64,000 nt of DNA, taken from the NCBI RefSeq assembly GCF_003293745.1, contig NZ_PTLZ01000002.1, positions 682,001-746,000 of the forward strand, read 5' to 3'. How positions within the stretch are numbered: the first letter of the stretch is position 1; each line of letters begins with the position of its first letter. Of this stretch, positions 37,623 through 54,530 are shown in pieces. The notes below the pieces were generated by a model. It was not told where the DNA came from, did no database searches, and saw only the letters and a program-made list of their open reading frames with translations. The stretch comes from Herminiimonas fonticola (lineage in GTDB: Bacteria > Pseudomonadota > Gammaproteobacteria > Burkholderiales > Burkholderiaceae_D). The position numbers and the translations under genes are program-made.

Positions 37623-37651
37623 TGGATTGTTTTCAATCTGAAAACAATCCA
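37623..37651 (+). terminator. 13-bp hairpin after the LysR gene
   Basis: TGGATTGTTTTCA and TGAAAACAATCCA are exact complements around a three-base loop (ATC). There is no T run after it, so it may be a processing site or Rho-linked structure rather than an intrinsic terminator. Confidence 0.5.
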
Positions 37652-39245: not shown

Positions 39246-39281
39246 ATACACGCCGCAATAAATCAGCAAATAGCTCCGAAT

Positions 39282-39311
39282 AAAAAATCCCGCTTTTTAG
39301 CGGGATTTTTT
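39282..39311 (+). terminator. Intrinsic terminator after the MFS gene
   Basis: AAAAAATCCCGC pairs exactly with GCGGGATTTTTT around a six-base loop. The flanking A and T runs suit termination on both strands; the leftward DsbA-like frame ends 66 bases away. Confidence 0.9.
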
Positions 39312-39377
39312 ATTCGGCATCGTTTTCGCGGGGATACACAATAACGATATTTTCGTTCGTGACAGATTCTTGAAATA

Positions 39378-44768: not shown

Positions 44769-46112
44769 TTAATTGCGAATCTGTAGTGAGCGGTTGAGGC
44801 TCAATGCAGCCAGCGAGCCAAAGGCGCCGGACAGCAAATACAAGCTGACATAGCCGAGGCCAAAATGCGCTGACAGGCCCAGTGCAACCAACGGTGCAAA
44901 ACCTGCACCAACCAGCCATGCAAGATCGGAAGTCAGCGCGGCACCGGTGTAGCGGTATTTGGCAGGGAAGTTTGCCGAAACCGCACCAGCAGCTTGACCA
45001 TATGACAAGCCCAGCAGGCCAAAGCCGAGGATCACGAAAAGATCCTGACCTTCAGGTCCGCCATCCATCAGCATAGGTACAAAGGCGCTGAAGATCGCGA
45101 TCAATACAGCCAGCGTACCCAGTGTGGTGCGACGACCGAAGCGATCGGCAATCAGACCAGACGCTACAACGCCGACAGCCGCCAATGCCGCTCCCCACAT
45201 TTGAACGTGCAGGAAGACGCTGATGGAGCGCGCCGAGTACAGGTTGATCCACGACAGCGGGAATACCGTCACAAGGTGAAACAGCGCGTAACTTGCCAGT
45301 GCTGCCAGCGCACCGATGACCAAGTTGCGGCCTTGCGAACGGGTGATTTCCACGACGCCGGTTGGCTCCAGTTCCTGTTCATCCAGCAGGCGGCTGTATT
45401 CTGGTGTCGATACCAGGCGCAGACGAGCAAACAGCGCTACCACGTTGATGGCAAATGCGACATAGAAGGGATAGCGCCAGCCCCAGTCAAGAAAATCGGC
45501 TCTGGGAATAGTCGATATCAGGTAAGCAAACAAACCAGCGGCAATAATGAAACCGACTGGCGCACCGAGTTGTCCCAACATCGCATACCAGCCACGTTTG
45601 TTTTGCGGGGCGTTAAGCGCAAGCAGGGAAGGCAGGCCATCCCATGAACCGCCCAGCGCAATACCTTGGCCTATGCGTAATAGTGACAACGCGATAATTG
45701 CGGTTGCTCCCATATGCGCGTAAGTCGGCAGGAACGCGATGCCAGCAGTAGAAAAGCCGAGCAAAAAGAGGGCTAGTGTCAGTTTTGCTTCACGACTAAA
45801 ATGTCGCTGAATTGCCATGAAGGCAATAGTGCCGAATGGCCGTGCAATAAATGCAAATGAAAAGATGGTGAAGGCGTACAGCGTACCTTCAAGCGGTTCG
45901 GCAAAAGGAAAAAATACCGCCGGAAAGACCAGTACCGACGCAATTGCATAGACAAAAAAATCGAAGTATTCCGACGCGCGGCCTATGACGACGCCGATGG
46001 CAATTTCGCCGGGGGCGATTTGGCTGTGCCTGGTATTAAGCAGGCGTGGGCCATTGCCAGGTGAGGCAAGCCGTGAATCGGGTGGAAGTTCAGTGTTATA
46101 AGTGCTGTCCAT
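44769..46112 (-). CDS. MFS metabolite:H+ symporter
   Basis: A 447-residue transporter of the sugar-porter/MHS branch (ProP, KgtP, ShiA-like). Marks are IAIGVVIGRASEYFDFFVYAIASVLVFP in helix 1, FAFIARPFGTIAFMAIQRHFSREAKL, and ADRFGRRTTLG in the second half. ATG 46112 follows GGAGG by nine bases; the longer frame is Arg/Lys-rich and unlikely. Members take up organic acids or betaines with protons. It is divergent from cyoA, and the shared 155-base gap holds a palindrome. Confidence 0.88.
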   Translation of the reverse strand: MDSTYNTELPPDSRLASPGNGPRLLNTRHSQIAPGEIAIGVVIGRASEYFDFFVYAIASVLVFPAVFFPFAEPLEGTLYAFTIFSFAFIARPFGTIAFMAIQRHFSREAKLTLALFLLGFSTAGIAFLPTYAHMGATAIIALSLLRIGQGIALGGSWDGLPSLLALNAPQNKRGWYAMLGQLGAPVGFIIAAGLFAYLISTIPRADFLDWGWRYPFYVAFAINVVALFARLRLVSTPEYSRLLDEQELEPTGVVEITRSQGRNLVIGALAALASYALFHLVTVFPLSWINLYSARSISVFLHVQMWGAALAAVGVVASGLIADRFGRRTTLGTLAVLIAIFSAFVPMLMDGGPEGQDLFVILGFGLLGLSYGQAAGAVSANFPAKYRYTGAALTSDLAWLVGAGFAPLVALGLSAHFGLGYVSLYLLSGAFGSLAALSLNRSLQIRN

Positions 46113-46189
46113 AATCTTGGCCTCCGTATCGATTTTATTAATCAACGCGCCGACGTTACCCCACTTCCACAGGTCCCTGACCTCTAGGG

Positions 46190-46206
46190 TGGGACAAAAC
46201 GTCCTA
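46190..46206. promoter_or_regulatory. Palindrome between MFS and cyoA
   Basis: TGGGAC-AAAAC-GTCCTA (46190-46206) is a near-perfect dyad, preceded by GTCCC (46174) that can also pair with GGGAC. It lies 62 bases before cyoA, where an activator or repressor site is expected. The binding protein is unknown; RegA encoded downstream is one candidate. Confidence 0.4.
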
Positions 46207-46267
46207 TCGGCAACGCGCGCTGTTTGTATTACATTAGCACGATCTTCCAACCTCCGTAATGCATTGA

Positions 46268-47302
46268 ATGACTTCTTTGATAACTCGTCGCGGATTATTG
46301 TTGTTACCACTCGTGTTGCTTGCAGGCTGCGACTTGGTGGTGCTCAATCCTTCCGGTGACATAGCTGCACAACAGGGGCAACTGATTGTTGTTTCTACGC
46401 TATTGATGCTGTTGATCATCGTCCCGGTGATCGCTCTGACTATATTTTTTGCCTGGCGCTATCGGCAAAGCAATACAACAGCTAAATATGATCCTGATTG
46501 GGATCACTCCACTCAACTCGAACTGGTGATCTGGGGCGCTCCGCTTCTGATCATTATTGTTCTCGGCGCGATTACATGGATCAGCACGCATACGCTGGAT
46601 CCATATCGTCCGCTGGACAGGCTGGATGCTGATCGCCCGATCTCAGCCGCTGCCCAGCCGATCACGATTGAGGTCGTGGCACTCGATTGGAAATGGCTGT
46701 TCATCTATCCTGAACAAGGCATTGCGACCGTCAACGAATTGGCTACGCCGATTGACGTTCCTGTGCGCTTCAAGATCACCGCATCGACTGTGATGAATTC
46801 GTTCTACATCCCTGCGTTGGCTGGCCAGATCTATGCAATGCCAGGCATGCAAACGCAATTGAATGCAGTCATCAACAAAGAAGGCGTCTACGACGGTTTC
46901 TCCGCGAACTTCAGCGGCGATGGTTTCTCGCACATGCGCTTCAAGTATCACGGCATGGAAGTGGCGGACTTCGACAAGTGGGTGAAAAAAGTCAAAGCTG
47001 AAAGCAACTCGCTGGATCGTACAAGCTACACCGCGCTGGAAGCTCCTAGCGAACGCGAACCTGTGCGTTACTACGGCAAAGTCGCTCCAGACTTGTACGG
47101 CGCGATCTTGAATCGTTGCGTTGCCGAAGGCACGGTCTGCATGGACAAAATGATGCATGACGATGCAAACCGCATGAAGATTGATGCGGCTGCCAAGAAT
47201 TTCCTTAAAGACGGAAACGTATCCCGTGTCGCGCAAATCGACGCTGCGGTATGCACTTCGTCCACCAATTTAGTGAAGAGTAATGATGCTAGAGCATATT
47301 GA
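46268..47302 (+). CDS. cyoA: Cytochrome o ubiquinol oxidase subunit II
   Basis: A 344-residue inner membrane lipoprotein subunit. The signal ends LLAGC with Cys21, followed by two transmembrane helices (about 38-62 and 85-108) and a periplasmic cupredoxin-like domain with [21 protein letters not shown]. The CuA ligands are absent ([17 protein letters not shown] in place of a CSxxC site), as in quinol oxidases. It opens the cyoABCD operon and overlaps cyoB by 20 bases. Confidence 0.94.
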
Positions 47303-49289
47303 TCTGACGAAGCTTATCTTCGGTCGTCTGAGCTGGGACGCGATCCCGTTTCACGAACCTATCTTGCTGGTAACGTTCGGCATGGTGGTGCTCGGTGGCG
47401 CTGCACTGTTGGGCGCGATGACTTATTTCCGCGTGTGGGGCACTTTGTGGCGCGATTGGATTACCAGTATCGATCACAAGAAAATCGGCATCATGTACAT
47501 GATTCTCGGTTTGGTCATGTTGATGCGCGGCTTTGCCGATGCATTGATGATGCGTGCCCAACAGGCTATCGCTTTTGGCGACAATCCTGGCTTTCTGCCA
47601 CCGCATCATTACGATCAAGTCTTTACTGCGCACGGCGTGATCATGATTTTCTTCGTGGCGATGCCGCTGGTAACCGGTTTGATGAACTATGTCGTGCCTT
47701 TGCAAATCGGCGCACGTGACGTTGCTTTCCCGTTCCTGAATAACTTCAGCTTCTGGATGACGACCTTCGGTGGCGGATTGACGATGGCTTCGCTGTTCGT
47801 CGGTGAATTTGCACGTACTGGCTGGCTGGCATATCCGCCGCTGTCCGGTATTTTGGCCAGCCCGGGAGTAGGGGTCGACTATTACATCTGGTCACTGCAG
47901 GTGGCCGGCGTAGGGACCTTGCTGTCCGGCGTCAACCTGATTGCAACCATCGTCAAGATGCGCGCACCAGGCATGGATATGATGAAGATGCCGGTGTTCA
48001 CTTGGACTGCCTTGTGCACCAACGTGTTGATCGTCGCTGCTTTCCCTATCCTGACCGCTGTGCTGGCAATGTTGTCGCTGGATCGCGTATTTGATACCAA
48101 CTTCTTCACGAACGACTTGGGCGGCAACGCCATGATGTACGTGAACTTGATCTGGATCTGGGGCCATCCTGAAGTCTACATTCTGATTCTGCCGCTGTTC
48201 GGCGTGTTCTCGGAAGTCGTATCGACATTCTCGGCCAAGCGTTTGTTCGGTTACACCTCGATGGTGTACGCGACTGTCGTTATCACGATTCTGTCTTACC
48301 TGGTTTGGCTGCATCACTTCTTCACGATGGGTTCCGGCGCGAGTGTCAACTCGTTCTTCGGTATCACAACGATGATTATTTCGATTCCGACCGGCGCGAA
48401 GATTTTCAACTGGTTGTTCACGATGTATCGCGGCCGTATTCGTTTCGAATTGCCGATGTTGTGGACCATGGGCTTCATGATCACATTCGTGATCGGCGGT
48501 ATGACCGGCGTGTTGCTGGCTGTTCCACCAGCTGACTTCGTATTGCATAACAGCCTGTTCCTGATCGCTCACTTCCACAACGTGATCATCGGTGGTGTGG
48601 TGTTCGGTGTGTTCGCCGCGATCAACTACTGGTTCCCGAAAGCATTCGGCTTCAAGCTGGACGTGTTCTGGGGTAAATGCTCGTTCTGGTTCTGGCTCGT
48701 CGGTTTCTGGATGGCGTTCATGCCGTTGTACGTATTGGGTCTGATGGGCGTAACGCGTCGTATGAGTCAGTTCCAGGATCCATCGCTGCAAATCTGGTTC
48801 CAGATTGCTGCTGTCGGTGCAGTCCTGATTGCGTTGGGTATCGGCTCGATGTTCATGCAGTTCTATGTCAGCTTCAAACGTCGCAAGGAATTGCGCGATG
48901 TGACTGGCGATCCATGGAATGGCCGTACGCTGGAATGGTCGACTTCGTCGCCGCCGCCAGATTACAACTTCGCATTCACACCACGTGTACATGACAATGA
49001 CACATGGGCTGACATGAAGAAAAATGGCTACACGCGTCCATTGACGGGCTACACCTCGATTCACATGCCGAAAAATACGGCAGCCGGTTTCATCATCTCT
49101 GCATTGAGTGCGGCGATCGGTTTCTGCCTGATCTGGCACATGTGGCTGGGTGCTGGCGTCGTGTTCGTTACCATGATGGCAGCCATCATTATTCATACCT
49201 TTAATTACAAACGCGATTTCTACATCCCGGCGGAAGAAGTAACCCGCACGGAAGAAGCTCGCACACGTTTGCTGGAAAGCCATGTCTGA
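47283..49289 (+). CDS. cyoB: Cytochrome o ubiquinol oxidase subunit I
   Basis: The 668-residue catalytic subunit with fifteen predicted helices. Haem and copper ligands are visible: [29 protein letters not shown] with the His-Tyr crosslink pair, [11 protein letters not shown] for two CuB His, and [12 protein letters not shown] for the high- and low-spin haem His. It reduces oxygen to water and pumps protons using ubiquinol. Both ATGs at 47283 and 47286 are possible. Order and overlaps match the canonical cyo operon. Confidence 0.96.
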
Positions 49290-49929
49290 AATTACTGCAA
49301 CTTCTGCCAGCGCATTGAGCGCTGATCTTGGCGCGGATCCGAGCGCTCGTTATTACGTGCAAGAGCATCATCCGGAAAACAGCACCTTGCTGGGTTTCTG
49401 GTTGTATCTGATGAGCGATTGTCTGATTTTCGCGTGTCTGTTCGCAACCTACGCTGTACTGGGTCGCAACTACGCGGGCGGCCCTACCGGTGCCGAATTA
49501 TTCGACCTGCCGCTGGTGGCGATGAACACGGCATTCCTGTTGTTGTCGTCGATTACCTACGGCTTTGCCATGCTGGAATCGCAACGTAAAAACCTGCGTG
49601 CCACCATGATCTGGCTGGCAGTGACCGGTTTGTTCGGCTTGGCCTTCCTGGCGTTGGAACTGTACGAATTCCATCATTTGATTCATGTGGGCGCAGGTCC
49701 ACACCGCAGCGGTTTCCTGACAGCGTTCTTCGCACTGGTGGCGACTCACGGTTTGCACGTTACTTTCGGTATCGTGTGGTTGGTAACCTTGATGTTCCAA
49801 CTCAAGCGCCACGGCCTGATTCCTGAAAACGGCCGTCGCCTGATGTGCCTGTCCATGTTCTGGCATTTCCTGGACGTGATCTGGATCGGCGTCTTTACCT
49901 TTGTTTATCTGATGGGAGTTTTGCCATGA
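49282..49929 (+). CDS. cyoC: Cytochrome o ubiquinol oxidase subunit III
   Basis: A 215-residue five-helix subunit. [25 protein letters not shown] is the first helix of the short, quinol-oxidase form of subunit III, and [38 protein letters not shown] is the conserved centre. It overlaps cyoB by eight bases and shares ATGA with cyoD. Confidence 0.94.
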
Positions 49930-50357
49930 GCGATCATCACGCACATGCCGATCACGGTCATCACGGCCACGAAGACCATGTTGATCATGGCAGCCTGAAA
50001 AGCTATTCGATTGGTTTCATCCTGTCGGTTATCCTGACAGCGATTCCATTCTGGCTGGTCATGGGTAAGGTCATCACCGACTCCAGCACTACGGGTTTCG
50101 TTCTTCTTGGTTTTGCGGCAGTACAAATCGTGGTTCACATGATTTACTTCCTGCACATGAATACCAAATCCGAAGGTGGCTGGTCGATGCTGGCTCTGGT
50201 GTTTACCATCATGGTGGTTGTCATCATGTTGGCAGGCTCCATCTGGGTCATGTATCACCTCAACACCAACATGATGCCGCACATGATCGATCCGACTGGC
50301 GAAGCACACATTCCATCGGCAGTACATGATGCAGCGTCACACATGAACCATAAATAA
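49926..50357 (+). CDS. cyoD: Cytochrome o ubiquinol oxidase subunit IV, His-rich N-terminus
   Basis: A 143-residue subunit with three helices (FILSVILTAIPFWLVMG, GFVLLGFAAVQIVVHMIYFLHM, MLALVFTIMVVVIMLAGSIWVMYHL). The first 22 residues hold ten His ([21 protein letters not shown]), longer than the E. coli protein, perhaps binding copper or another metal. ATG 49926 overlaps the cyoC stop as ATGA. Its own stop overlaps the next start as TAATG. Confidence 0.92.
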   Translation: MSDHHAHADHGHHGHEDHVDHGSLKSYSIGFILSVILTAIPFWLVMGKVITDSSTTGFVLLGFAAVQIVVHMIYFLHMNTKSEGGWSMLALVFTIMVVVIMLAGSIWVMYHLNTNMMPHMIDPTGEAHIPSAVHDAASHMNHK

Positions 50358-51190
50358 TGGTGCATGAGTTGCAAAACAAGGACGGCTCGGTTTCGCAGGA
50401 AACCGAGCCGTCTTTACGTTCACGCACAACACGCATAGTCTTGGCAGTGTGTGCGCTGGTGTTGTTCGCCGCTTTTGTCGCGCTAGGTACATGGCAGGTT
50501 TATCGTTTGCAATGGAAGCTCGCGCTGATCGAGCGCGTAGACCAACGCGTACATGCAGCGGCAATTGCTGCGCCAGCGCCTGATTGCTGGTCGCAGGTCA
50601 GTGCAGAGAGTGACGAATATCGCCATGTCAATGCAAGCGGTGTCTTTTTGCATGAACTGTCCAGCAAGGTGCAGGCGGTGACGGAACTCGGTGCCGGCTA
50701 CTGGTTGCTGACACCGTTACGCCAAGATGATGGCAGCGTGGTCTTCATCAACCGTGGTTTCATCACGGAAGCGCAGAGCAAGACGATTTTTACCGATCAG
50801 AAAAAAGCAAATCCAGTTGTGCTCGGAAATGGCGAGCGAGTTGTAATCACCGGTTTGTTGCGCATCAACGAACCGGGCGGCGGCTTCTTGCGTAAAAACG
50901 ATATTGCAGGTGATCGCTGGTATTCGCGTGATGTACAGGCGCTGGCGCAGGCTCACAATCTGTCACGCGTAGCGCCTTACTTTATCGATGCAGAAACTGA
51001 TAAAAGCAATTCTTCCAGCAGCGCGGATGCGTCGCTGATCCGTCCGGTTGCCGGCTTGACGATCATCTCATTTCACAATAGCCATATGGTCTATGCACTT
51101 ACTTGGTATGCTCTTGCCTTGATGGTGGCAGGCGCGGCCTTTTGGGTGACGCGCGAAGAGCGCAGGGCAAGGCGATCAAGATCGCATTGA
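50357..51190 (+). CDS. SURF1-family oxidase assembly protein
   Basis: A 277-residue protein with the SURF1 layout: an N-terminal helix (about 28-48), a periplasmic domain with VALGTWQVYRLQWKLALIERVDQRV, GYWLLTPLRQDDGSVVFINRGFI and HMVYALTWYALALMVAGAAFWV as the C-terminal helix. SURF1 helps insert haem into haem-copper oxidases. It is directly coupled to cyoD (TAATG). A strong terminator-like hairpin at 50378-50415 lies inside codons 8-19, so either the start is further downstream or expression is attenuated. Confidence 0.88.
   Translation: MVHELQNKDGSVSQETEPSLRSRTTRIVLAVCALVLFAAFVALGTWQVYRLQWKLALIERVDQRVHAAAIAAPAPDCWSQVSAESDEYRHVNASGVFLHELSSKVQAVTELGAGYWLLTPLRQDDGSVVFINRGFITEAQSKTIFTDQKKANPVVLGNGERVVITGLLRINEPGGGFLRKNDIAGDRWYSRDVQALAQAHNLSRVAPYFIDAETDKSNSSSSADASLIRPVAGLTIISFHNSHMVYALTWYALALMVAGAAFWVTREERRARRSRSH
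50378..50415 (+). terminator. Strong hairpin inside the start of the SURF1 frame
   Basis: GACGGCTCGGTTTC (50381-50394) and GAAACCGAGCCGTC (50399-50412) are exact complements with a four-base loop, preceded by A-rich bases and followed by TTTA. It has the form of an intrinsic terminator 24 bases after the cyoD stop. The T run is short, so leakage is likely. Confidence 0.72.
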
Positions 51191-51242
51191 TTGTCCTGGT
51201 GCGCTGCCAATCGCACCGATTGTATAGACCGAGAAACTGAAG

Positions 51243-52577
51243 ATGCCGGGAAAAACTGAAACTCCTTCGGTTAAAGAAGACCTGAAAATTCGAAGCAGCG
51301 CTGTGCGTGGCGAAAATTCCGCCGGCCACAAGAATATGCAGCAACTGATTCAGCTGCGCTGGATCGCCGTCGTTGGACAAATCACGACGATTGCTGTCGT
51401 TACCCTGATCTTCGGCATCGATCTTCCTGTGCGCCATATGCTGGAAGTTCTCGTTTGCCTGGTTGCCTTCAATATTGCCAGCCATCTGCGTTGGCACGAA
51501 CGGCCTTACGTATCAAATAATGAGTTGTTCCTGGCGATGCTGGTCGACGTCGGCATCCTTACCGCGCAGCTTTACCTGAGCGGTGGCACCACCAATCCCT
51601 TCATCTTCCTGTACTTGTTGCAAGTCATTTTGAGCGCGATGCTGCTTGAAGCATGGTCGACCTGGAGCATTGTTGCGATCACCAGTATCTGCTTGGTTGG
51701 TCTGACGCTATTTTCCAGTCCGCTTACCTTGTCTTATGATCACGAGCTGCGGTTTTTCAGCTTGTATGTACAAGGCATGCTGATCTGTTTTACCTTGAAT
51801 GGCATCTTGCTGGCGTTTTTCATGACGCGTATCAGTCGTAATTTACGAGCCGGCGATGCGCGACTTGCCGAGTTTCGCAAACGCGCGCTGGAAGAAGAAC
51901 ACATCGTCCGCATGGGCTTGCTGGCGTCCGGTGCGGCGCATGAACTGGGAACGCCGCTGGCAACCTTGTCGGTGATTCTCGGCGACTGGAAGCACATGCC
52001 GGAGTTCACCAATAACAAAGTGTTGCTGGAAGAAATTATCGAAATGGAAACGCAGTTGCAACGTTGCAAAAGCATCGTCAGCAGCATTCTGCTATCCGCC
52101 GGTGAGGCTCGAGGTGAATCGTCGGTCAAGACTACGCTCAGTACTTTTCTGGACGATCTCGCGACCGATTGGCGTAGCAGCAGGCCGGTTGTATTGTTTG
52201 AATACAGCAATCGGATCGCGCATGACGTCCCGGTGGTATTTGACTCCGTGTTGAAACAGATGATCTGCAATGTTCTCGACAATGCATTTGAGGCATCACC
52301 GCAATTCGTGAGTCTGGACGTATCCCGACAGGGCGATACCTTGACTTTGCGCATTACCGATAAAGGCCCCGGCTTTGCGCCTGCGATGCTGGCACAAATC
52401 GGCAAGCCTTATCAGTCCAGCAAAGGGCGGCCGGGTAGCGGGCTAGGTTTGTTTTTAGTGGTGAATGTGGCGCGCAAGCTTGGCGGTACCGTTAATGCGA
52501 GTAATCGGGAAGAGGGCGGCGCGCTGGTTGAACTGACTTTGCCACTTGCTGCAATCAGTCTGGACGAGGAAGAGTAA
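51243..52577 (+). CDS. regB: RegB/PrrB-type redox sensor histidine kinase
   Basis: A 444-residue sensor kinase. Six transmembrane helices in the first 200 residues contain LDVGILTAQLYLSGGTTNPFIFLYLLQVILSA, close to the quinone-sensing loop of RegB (GGxxNPF). The H box is GAAHELGTPLATLSVI, the RegB signature, and the ATP domain has NVLDNAFEAS, DKGPGFAP and GSGLGLFLVV. RegB senses the redox state of the ubiquinone pool. It follows SURF1 by 52 bases and precedes its response regulator. Confidence 0.88.
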   Translation: MPGKTETPSVKEDLKIRSSAVRGENSAGHKNMQQLIQLRWIAVVGQITTIAVVTLIFGIDLPVRHMLEVLVCLVAFNIASHLRWHERPYVSNNELFLAMLVDVGILTAQLYLSGGTTNPFIFLYLLQVILSAMLLEAWSTWSIVAITSICLVGLTLFSSPLTLSYDHELRFFSLYVQGMLICFTLNGILLAFFMTRISRNLRAGDARLAEFRKRALEEEHIVRMGLLASGAAHELGTPLATLSVILGDWKHMPEFTNNKVLLEEIIEMETQLQRCKSIVSSILLSAGEARGESSVKTTLSTFLDDLATDWRSSRPVVLFEYSNRIAHDVPVVFDSVLKQMICNVLDNAFEASPQFVSLDVSRQGDTLTLRITDKGPGFAPAMLAQIGKPYQSSKGRPGSGLGLFLVVNVARKLGGTVNASNREEGGALVELTLPLAAISLDEEE

Positions 52578-53114
52578 ATGTCGACTGATCGTTTATTGTT
52601 ATTGATTGAAGATGATGCCGCTTTTGCGCGCACATTGGGTCGTTCGTTTGAGCGCCGCGGTTACACGGTTTTATTGGCAGCGAACCTGGATGCGGCAACG
52701 GCTTTGTTGCGAGAACATTCGCCGGGTTATGCGGTAGTCGATCTCAAGCTGGAAGGTAATACTTCCGGTCTTGCATGCGTGCAGATGCTGCATAAACATG
52801 ATCCGGCAATGCTGATTGTTGTGTTGACGGGATTTGCGAGTCTGAATACAGCGGTAGAGGCGATCAAGCTGGGCGCATGCCAGTACCTTGCCAAGCCATC
52901 GAATACCGATGACATTGAAGCTGCATTTGGTCACATCGCTGGTGTAACGGAAATTGAATTGACCAGTCGTTCGACGTCGATCAAGACGCTCGAATGGGAG
53001 CGCATACACGAAGTGCTGGTGGAAACGGATTTCAATATTTCCGAAGCTGCCCGTCGGCTCGGCATGCACAGACGTACCTTGGCGCGTAAACTGGAAAAGC
53101 AGCGCGTCAAGTAA
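52578..53114 (+). CDS. regA: RegA/PrrA-type response regulator
   Basis: A 178-residue regulator. The receiver domain has the acidic pair Glu11-Asp12, the phosphorylated Asp55 (VVDLKLEG), Thr84 in VVLTGF and Lys106 (LAKPS). The C-terminal Fis-type helix-turn-helix is FNISEAARRLGMHRRTLARKLEKQ, typical of RegA/ActR. It starts at the next base after the regB stop, so the pair is translationally tight. Known relatives switch respiratory oxidases, photosynthesis or nitrogen genes. The cyo operon upstream is the obvious candidate target. Confidence 0.9.
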   Translation: MSTDRLLLLIEDDAAFARTLGRSFERRGYTVLLAANLDAATALLREHSPGYAVVDLKLEGNTSGLACVQMLHKHDPAMLIVVLTGFASLNTAVEAIKLGACQYLAKPSNTDDIEAAFGHIAGVTEIELTSRSTSIKTLEWERIHEVLVETDFNISEAARRLGMHRRTLARKLEKQRVK

Positions 53115-53218
53115 GCATCGTTGCAGTCGCAACAGTATTCACAATATCTGCAAACACAGTTCGAATATGCCAACGCGTACTGCATCTTGTTTTGATCAAG
53201 TGATTTGAGAAGCCTGTG

Positions 53219-53872
53219 ATGACCTTGAGCTTGTTCGATGACGAAGAAAGCAGGCGTACATGGCAAGAGCCTTTGTGCGAAGGCGCTGTTGTGTTGCGTG
53301 GTTTCGCTCTTGATGATGAAACCAGGATTCTTGCCGCGCTGAAAAAAATCCTCGCACAATCACCCTTACGCCATATGGTCACGCCCGGCGGTTTTCGCAT
53401 GTCGGTCGCGATGAGTAATTGCGGGACTTACGGCTGGGTGACAGATCGCAGCGCTTATCGCTACGACCGTATTGATCCCGAAAACGGGAATGCATGGCCG
53501 GCCATGCCAGGATTCTTTGCAGAGCTTGCGCAGAAAGCAGCGGCGCAAGCCGGCTTCAAAGATTTTATGCCTGACGCCTGCCTGATCAATCGCTACGAAG
53601 TTGGCGCACGCATGTCTTTGCACCAGGACAAGAACGAACGCGATTTTACGCAGCCTATTGTTTCTGTTTCGCTAGGCATTCCAGCCGTGTTTTTATTCGG
53701 TGGTATGCAACGCGCAGACAAAGCCATGCGCGTGCCGCTGGCGCATGGCGATGTGGTGGTGTGGGGTGGTCCCGCAAGATTACGGTATCACGGCGTATCG
53801 GCACTCAAGCCTGCAAGTCATTCGCTGCTTGGCGAATGTCGGATCAACCTGACATTCCGCAAGGTGAGTTGA
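53219..53872 (+). CDS. alkB: AlkB-family Fe(II)/2-oxoglutarate dioxygenase
   Basis: A 217-residue DNA/RNA demethylase. The 2-oxoglutarate dioxygenase core is complete: HQD in SLHQDKNERDF gives His and Asp, the distal His lies in ARLRYHGVSAL and the 2-oxoglutarate Arg lies in RINLTFR. MSVAMSNCGTYGWVTDRSAYRYDRIDP is the substrate lid of AlkB proper. It repairs 1-methyladenine and 3-methylcytosine by oxidation. GTG 53216 just before ATG 53219 is an alternative start. No ada gene is adjacent. Confidence 0.93.
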   Translation: MTLSLFDDEESRRTWQEPLCEGAVVLRGFALDDETRILAALKKILAQSPLRHMVTPGGFRMSVAMSNCGTYGWVTDRSAYRYDRIDPENGNAWPAMPGFFAELAQKAAAQAGFKDFMPDACLINRYEVGARMSLHQDKNERDFTQPIVSVSLGIPAVFLFGGMQRADKAMRVPLAHGDVVVWGGPARLRYHGVSALKPASHSLLGECRINLTFRKVS

Positions 53873-53947
53873 TCGCCTTTGCTGCCAGACTGATCGACGC
53901 TGCGCAAGCAGCGTACTTATTTTTCCGCAAGCGCTAATGGATGGCGA

Positions 53948-54412
53948 TCAGGCAGGCATTTTTTCCATGGCTTGTTGCATTTCTTGCTGACTTACGTCGC
54001 GGATGTGGGTGGCGATGGACCAGTTGTGACCAAAAGGATCTTCTACTACGCCGTAACGGTCGCCCCAGAAAGTATCTTCCATAGGAAACTTGGCAGTCGC
54101 ACCGGCGGCAATTGCGCGATTGAAAACGGCATCGGCATCTTCGACATACAGGTGAATAGTGACCAGTGAACCCTTCAATGCTTTGGGTCCCAAGGCACCG
54201 CAGCCGCGCATTTCGTCCATCAGCATGATGCAGGAATCGCCGATGCGGATCTGGGCGTGCATTATTTTTCCGTCAGGTCCGGGCAATCGCATCATTTCAA
54301 CTGCATGAAATGCTTTGATATAAAAGGTGATTGCGTTGGCGGCACCGTCGCAAACAAGATGAGGTGTCACGGTATGCATACCGGTGGGGATGGCTTGTAC
54401 TTTTTGACTCAC
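53948..54412 (-). CDS. VOC-family (PhnB/glyoxalase-like) protein
   Basis: A 154-residue vicinal oxygen chelate fold protein. MHTVTPHLVCDGAANAITFYIKAFHAVEMMRLPGPDGKIMHAQIRIGDSCIMLMDE is the first half, and DADAVFNRAIAAGATAKFPMEDTFWGDRYGVVEDPFGHNWSIATH the second. These are the PhnB-type repeats. The enzymatic role is unknown; PhnB-like proteins are often annotated as glyoxalase-related. It stands alone between alkB and unknown genes. Confidence 0.88.
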   Translation of the reverse strand: MSQKVQAIPTGMHTVTPHLVCDGAANAITFYIKAFHAVEMMRLPGPDGKIMHAQIRIGDSCIMLMDEMRGCGALGPKALKGSLVTIHLYVEDADAVFNRAIAAGATAKFPMEDTFWGDRYGVVEDPFGHNWSIATHIRDVSQQEMQQAMEKMPA

Positions 54413-54530
54413 GATAATTCTCCTTTGGATTGAAGATCCGGTTGTCTGTAATGGCCGGACATGGTGCTGCGCTTGTCGTCCCTGATCGTTGATGATGTGA
54501 ACAATTTTTGATCTGCTTCGTAGTATTCAA

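Follow-up and report, generated by a model that had tools for sequence, protein, structure and literature searches.

A selected RNA hairpin within the first codons of SURF1, downstream of cyoABCD, and its possible role as an mRNA 3' boundary

Hairpins that separate the fates of genes within one operon are known in Escherichia coli. Dar and Sorek (2018, PMC5927463) describe 26 protective structures, 17 of them located within the coding sequence of the next gene; the structures carry no U tract, and wobble positions are conserved. These hairpins of differentially decaying operons, demonstrated by term-seq together with decay, lie on average 107 nt into the gene that contains them and mark a step between genes needed in different amounts. 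The same text describes an intergenic case, the malE-malF 3' protective structure, which stabilises the abundant upstream member of its operon. In the gal operon the galE-galT 'E-hairpin' has an 8-bp stem and defines where the upstream mRNA has its 3' end, about 120-130 nt past the galE stop; the portions available of the reports concerned (PMC9239205; PMC11925234) describe a combination of failed initiation at the next gene, action of Rho or RNase E, and trimming back to the hairpin. Intrinsic terminators are defined, in the available part of PMC7566282, by a U-rich RNA of 7-9 nt directly past the hairpin.

The hairpin described here, at the junction of cyoD and the gene for the oxidase assembly factor SURF1, shares the main properties of the PMC5927463 group: it is stable, it is located within the downstream coding sequence, it is conserved in relatives with additional conservation of wobble positions, and it stands between operon genes needed in different amounts. 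Its U tract is poor, while that group has none. The hairpin differs further in being known from sequence alone, in lying only 24 nt into its gene and in a conservation that includes compensatory amino-acid changes. Its stem and its distance from the upstream stop codon differ from those of the E-hairpin, with which it shares location inside a gene and, as we propose, the marking of the upstream mRNA 3' end; the role of Rho or RNase E, of trimming and of failed initiation, described for galE-galT, would here be assumed by analogy. As proposed for the present case, the malE-malF structure favours an abundant upstream product, but it is intergenic whereas ours is coding. We consider it somewhat better than an even bet (a probability of roughly 0.55) that the hairpin is a 3' boundary whose main action would be to block exonucleases from degrading the cyoABCD mRNA, possibly alongside a degree of termination. 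This reading is supported by the E. coli precedent, in which protective hairpins occur in downstream coding sequence without a U tract and with wobble conservation.

A term search of the main text of PMC5927463 found neither 'cyo' nor 'oxidase', and the accessible part of PMC9145763 contains nothing on a hairpin at the cyoD/SURF1 junction. Among the matches listed in a search of open-licence PMC text, consisting mostly of titles and the openings of abstracts, none described such a hairpin. Thus, while operon hairpins embedded in coding sequence are a known kind, this instance, the evidence for its dual coding and its turnover in relatives were not found among the matches listed in these sources.

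The window analysed is a 64,000-nucleotide stretch of the betaproteobacterial genome of Herminiimonas fonticola. The operon lies on its plus strand in the order cyoA (46268..47302), cyoB (47283..49289), cyoC (49282..49929), cyoD (49926..50357), SURF1 (50357..51190), a RegB/PrrB/ActS-like histidine kinase (51243..52577) and a RegA/PrrA/ActR-like response regulator (52578..53114). The last two are named from their best NCBIfam matches, which fall below the curated cut-offs. The TAA stop of cyoD, which encodes quinol oxidase subunit IV, occupies 50355-50357 and overlaps the SURF1 ATG (50357-50359) as TAATG; SURF1 itself has 277 amino acids. In Sinorhizobium fredii, SURF1 decreases jointly with cyoABCD, which fits co-transcription (PMC9100948, accessible text).

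The hairpin is located at 50378..50415 of the plus strand. Its arms, GACGGCTCGGTTTC (50381-50394) and GAAACCGAGCCGTC (50399-50412), form exactly 14 Watson-Crick pairs around a GCAG tetraloop (50395-50398), and three basal pairs (G50380-U50413, A50379-U50414 and A50378-U50415) extend the stem to 17. TTTACGTT comes next; it opens with a TTT tail (50413..50415), followed by ACGTTC, that is weaker than that of typical intergenic stems of the same genome. A preliminary description had reported a 14-bp perfect stem with a four-base loop and a short T tail within the first 19 codons of SURF1, and all of this is present in the sequence: the perfect stem is encoded by codons 9-19 and the tail has three Ts. 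The spacing it gave, 24 bases after the cyoD stop, is the distance from the A of the SURF1 ATG; the perfect stem follows the stop at a spacing of 23 nt.

It had also considered such pairing unlikely to arise by chance, with which our results agree. Folding of 50340-50460 yields -54.2 kcal/mol (z -6.7), and none of 200 dinucleotide shuffles was as good. We surveyed 464 kb of the same genome (the window plus 20 stretches of 20 kb) for perfect Watson-Crick stems of at least 12 bp and found 35, of which 32 lie outside and three inside ORFs, as judged by crude ORF calls of at least 100 codons. The other two in-ORF stems are of the A-tract/T-tract terminator type and lie near the starts of ORFs thought to be mis-started. 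The 14-base arm has no second exact match in the 3.1-Mb assembly (a single place matches with one mismatch), and the window contains no second copy of the stem-loop at up to three mismatches (0.00 expected). The folding z, the stem survey and the uniqueness of the arm together place the hairpin far beyond chance and make it exceptional for coding DNA. A repeat element or dispersed terminator was considered and rejected, as the hairpin is single-copy in each genome, and no Rfam family matches 46000-54500 at its gathering score.

Two other stems in the window were recorded during this survey. One, at 39276-39317, is a perfect stem of 19 bp, accompanied by A and T tracts and located 30 nt past the stop of a plus-strand ORF; it is the longest perfect stem of the 464 kb and has the look of an ordinary bidirectional terminator. 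The other, at 37623-37651, is a 13-bp perfect inverted repeat situated 28 nt past the stop of a plus-strand ORF; it lacks a T run, and its terminator score is negative.

The preliminary description called for an alignment of related genomes, which retrieved both the stem and compensatory changes. The stem pattern occurs in nine of 13 genomes of the genus, once per genome and always at the cyoD/SURF1 junction. SURF1 is present in 12 of the 13; the other, G004, has no SURF1 or CyoD match. Two genomes (G003 and G010) have a shorter, different hairpin at the junction (p 0.22 and 0.03, respectively, against dinucleotide shuffles), and in G008 the stem is mostly lost, which counts against a boundary role. 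The inner 13 pairs are formed in all nine genomes that carry the stem. Both partners have changed in three of the 17 pairs (12/43, 13/42 and 18/37). Pairs 12/43 and 13/42 join codons 9 and 19, where Asn or Asp combined with Ser gives way mostly to Ser combined with Leu; at pair 18/37, Ser to Pro accompanies Glu to Gly, with U-G in three genomes; and pair 22/33 passes from U-A via U-G to C-G, with Val to Ala and Thr to Ala. As read from the alignment and the proteins, the compensations within the genus are non-synonymous on both arms. The covariation signal of the genus alone is modest, since three two-sided pairs were reached by 35 of 500 shuffles and the covariation score by six of 500.

The third codon positions provide a second line of evidence. 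At variable residues the third base is invariant in six of seven stem codons but in only five of 132 in the rest of SURF1 (Fisher p 3.5e-7; eight genomes, G012 being omitted since its SURF1 is split over two contigs). Across codons 9-20, four of 12 residues are invariant compared with 10 of 12 third bases. One other run of 10 SURF1 codons also has nine invariant third bases, but there the residues are conserved. These figures bear on the idea that the pairing simply reflects codon bias or conservation of the peptide and has no RNA function: although chance pairing is conceivable between recurrent codons for Gly, Ser, Glu and Pro, shuffles of synonymous codons never reach the stem of the window (p 0.01, 100 shuffles), and residues vary where third bases do not. 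We regard this explanation as highly improbable. The compensations change both amino acids while third positions stay fixed, so the RNA takes precedence over the peptide, and the pattern of substitution indicates that the hairpin is under selection as RNA, in the sense orientation. Paired amino-acid replacements that preserve a stem are clean evidence for dual coding. They also carry a warning against taking the N-terminal SURF1 residues of these bacteria as functional protein.

The orientation can be read from the wobble pairs. Within the genus the imperfect cells of the inner 13 pairs comprise nine U-G and no C-A in the sense RNA (nine and two when G156, a genome of another genus, is included), and would be A-C on the other strand; the sense RNA is therefore most likely the functional molecule. 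The inverted repeat could in principle be a DNA palindrome, serving either as the site for a regulator that binds as a dimer or as a terminator acting on the opposite strand, where the flank is T-rich. The terminator scan does list the stem under the minus strand only, an entry to which we give no weight since TTTACGTT satisfies its 5-of-8 rule. Besides the wobble bias, the minus-strand terminator score is only 12.5 (33.1 in the sense direction), and paired bases are replaced jointly so that a different Watson-Crick pair results, a change incompatible with a fixed protein site. A DNA-level role is thus very hard to sustain.

A homologous stem is found at the same junction in two genomes of another genus, G156 and G182. 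With these added to the nine (11 genomes), two-sided changes occur in seven of 17 pairs (13 such cells), a figure reached in none of 500 shuffles, and the covariation score of 0.290 is reached by none of 500 shuffles and by no slid register; slid registers give one to five two-sided pairs. This stronger result depends on G156 and G182, both of which were found with a search pattern derived from the stem, and the alignment leaves out seven genomes of their genus that have CyoD (G034, G068, G138, G170, G194, G203 and G233), either for indels or for a different or absent structure as judged by reading. The pattern matched 22 of 195 family genomes; 13 of these are outside the genus of the window, and in two of the 13 the match is at the cyoD junction. 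A reversed control pattern matched six genomes, so that most of the remaining matches away from the junction look like chance. In G156 and G182, G-C pairs have mostly taken the place of the lower A-U pairs and of the T tail, so the stem is kept and the tail is lost; G156 also has two C-A mismatches in the inner stem. In genus g6, 11 genomes have a nearly invariant stem of 14 positions at the same junction, with a GCAA loop and one C-C mismatch.

The fate of the tail is relevant to whether the hairpin ends transcription. A leaky intrinsic terminator, or attenuator, would use the stem and short U tail to release some polymerases after cyoD, and a trailing ribosome that re-initiates at SURF1 might melt the stem and let transcription pass. 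Like the intrinsic terminators of the same genome (so named by their look), the hairpin has a GC-rich stem and small loop just past a stop codon; it differs from them in its weak U tail and its location inside a reading frame. Calculated with the constants of a d'Aubenton-Carafa-type terminator score, d is 33.1 with an nT of 3.75; this is above zero, so some termination in the genus is possible. However, 25 of the 32 intergenic stems (of at least 12 bp) of its own genome score higher, and 26 of the 32 have a T run of at least four on one strand or the other, compared with a sense run of three here. TTTACGTTC, the sequence after the hairpin, has five U in nine positions, with a longest run of three. 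The T run directly after the GC-rich stem is 3-5 in the nine genomes of the genus and is absent from G156 and G182, where the stem persists.

A positive d is found at 17 of 45 SURF1 starts (six of them in the genus of the window) compared with 0, 3, 2 and 0 of 45 in control windows, which favours termination. The score is nevertheless inflated at SURF1 starts because hydrophobic codons are U-rich: codon-shuffled SURF1 starts average a d of -20, as against -31 to -42 in control windows. Stems followed by ATTTTTCTTT, TTTTTCTTT, GTTGTTTTTTTT or TATTTTTTTT do occur in the SURF1 codons of Herbaspirillum-type, Undibacterium and related loci, and speak for termination in those cases; among the 12 loci outside the genus with a codon-test p of at most 0.05, however, a U-rich tail was read in only three, or four if locus L030 is counted. 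Release of polymerases as the principal function is thus possible but unlikely. The preliminary description had proposed attenuation of transcription between the oxidase subunits and the genes below. The part of that proposal concerning a selected RNA element is supported by covariation, frozen third positions and recurrence in relatives; the part concerning termination fares less well, the T tail being weak for this genome and missing from two relatives with paired stems. As a separate observation, stems with a U tract of these kinds within the codons for the first hydrophobic stretch of SURF1 were seen at ten Herbaspirillum-type loci and three others, and have the appearance of intrinsic terminators in coding sequence.

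Structure at this junction is not confined to close relatives. Averaged over 69 non-redundant loci, the folding z falls from about -0.2 at a distance from the junction to -1.6 for windows that begin 10-30 nt past the cyoD stop, and the signal peaks 0-40 nt after the stop. Smaller dips occur near the cyoD start (-0.85) and at -70 (-0.6). The lowest mean z is -6.0 in eight loci of the genus and -1.8 in 38 other loci with overlapping starts. The profile of the 23 loci with separate starts is broad, at about -1.0 to -1.1 near the junction, and reaches -1.3 at -60, so that the junction does not stand out, which counts against a boundary. In a synonymous-codon test, applied to the loci in which an overlapping start was found (24 of the 69 being omitted), a hairpin was significant (p of at most 0.05) at 19 of 45 SURF1 starts, including 13 of 38 outside the genus, while six control windows gave 3, 0, 3, 3, 2 and 5 of 45. 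The 26 of 45 loci with no significant structure also count against the boundary reading. Nine of 19 further loci were significant, compared with six of 76 control windows; five of the 19 belong to a genus picked after the stem-pattern search (three of five significant) and the remaining 14, one of which (L135) is G010 of the window's own genus, give six. Where no overlapping start was found (24 loci), a hairpin past the cyoD stop reached a p of at most 0.05 against dinucleotide shuffles in 12, a count made without control windows.

The stem sequences differ between genera. Herbaspirillum-type loci have two stems. Conservation of the first is only partial, with 85.6% of cells paired and a single two-sided pair, and in the second the outer seven pairs are invariant and hence uninformative. 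We read the junction as a place that is probably kept for structure while the sequence turns over, although not universally, given the 26 of 45 loci that show none in the codon test. A broader proposal is more tentative, and we place it a little short of even odds: the junction may be a conserved 3'-boundary slot across much of the Proteobacteria, intergenic in alphaproteobacteria and encoded by SURF1 in betaproteobacteria, where the N-terminal extension would mainly encode RNA. If this is true, it would be a device for operon stoichiometry conserved by shape and place over large distances. The E. coli cyoD-cyoE junction was tried as a comparison and set aside; no comparable stem was apparent by eye, and with a different next gene it says little. 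The small dip near the cyoD start of relatives lies close to a histidine-rich stretch (22 residues, 49926-49995 in the window) at the CyoD N-terminus, possibly metal-binding.

The alphaproteobacterial loci are informative in another respect. Since the stem begins 24 nt into SURF1, counted from the A of its AUG, just past a coupled start codon with no Shine-Dalgarno sequence evident by eye, it might act in translation, slowing the re-initiating ribosome and keeping SURF1 low while leaving transcript ends unaffected. At seven alphaproteobacterial loci, however, the hairpin sits in the gap between cyoD and a separate SURF1 start, out of reach of SURF1 elongation, and we consider translational control improbable as the principal role.

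For the 3' boundary that we favour, the following sequence of events can be envisaged. Ribosomes that terminate at the cyoD stop have the hairpin immediately ahead of them, and their position may be relevant. RNA ends would be generated within surf1 through Rho after failed re-initiation at SURF1, through RNase E or through partial termination at the hairpin; 3'-5' exonucleases would then trim the RNA back until halted by the stem. The outcome would be a stable cyoABCD mRNA and little SURF1 mRNA. We infer the arrest of exonucleases, the stabilisation of cyoABCD and the reduction of SURF1 from the features of the hairpin and its precedents. Such a boundary offers a testable answer to the question of how one operon could yield much oxidase and little assembly factor.

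It had been suggested that SURF1 might instead start further down, but the alignments argue against this. In the eight aligned genomes of the genus no frameshift interrupts the frame that opens with the ATG overlapping the cyoD stop. Between the stem and codon 36 the only in-frame ATG, GTG or TTG codons in these eight genomes fall at codons 26-36, where the first hydrophobic stretch is reached or already under way (as judged by eye), and a later SURF1 start is therefore unlikely.

It had further been suggested that the hairpin lowers expression of RegBA. This is doubtful because a conserved DNA element that is a candidate regB promoter lies below it, near the 3' end of SURF1. The element, ACTTGGTATGCTCTTGC (51101..51117, plus strand), is not part of the hairpin and is conserved at the DNA level. 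Its core, TGGTATGCT, which we take to resemble an extended -10 element, lies about 130 nt before regB, making ACTTGGTATGCTCTTGC a candidate internal promoter for regBA; were it to act as one, regBA would not depend on readthrough. Many loci with a downstream RegB homologue lack an exact copy, which speaks against the promoter reading. The element occurs only once in its own genome and is identical, third positions included, in the eight aligned genomes of the genus. Exact copies are present at 16 of 101 loci in all, including eight outside the genus, and the corresponding stretch has two differences in G008 and five each in G003 and G010.
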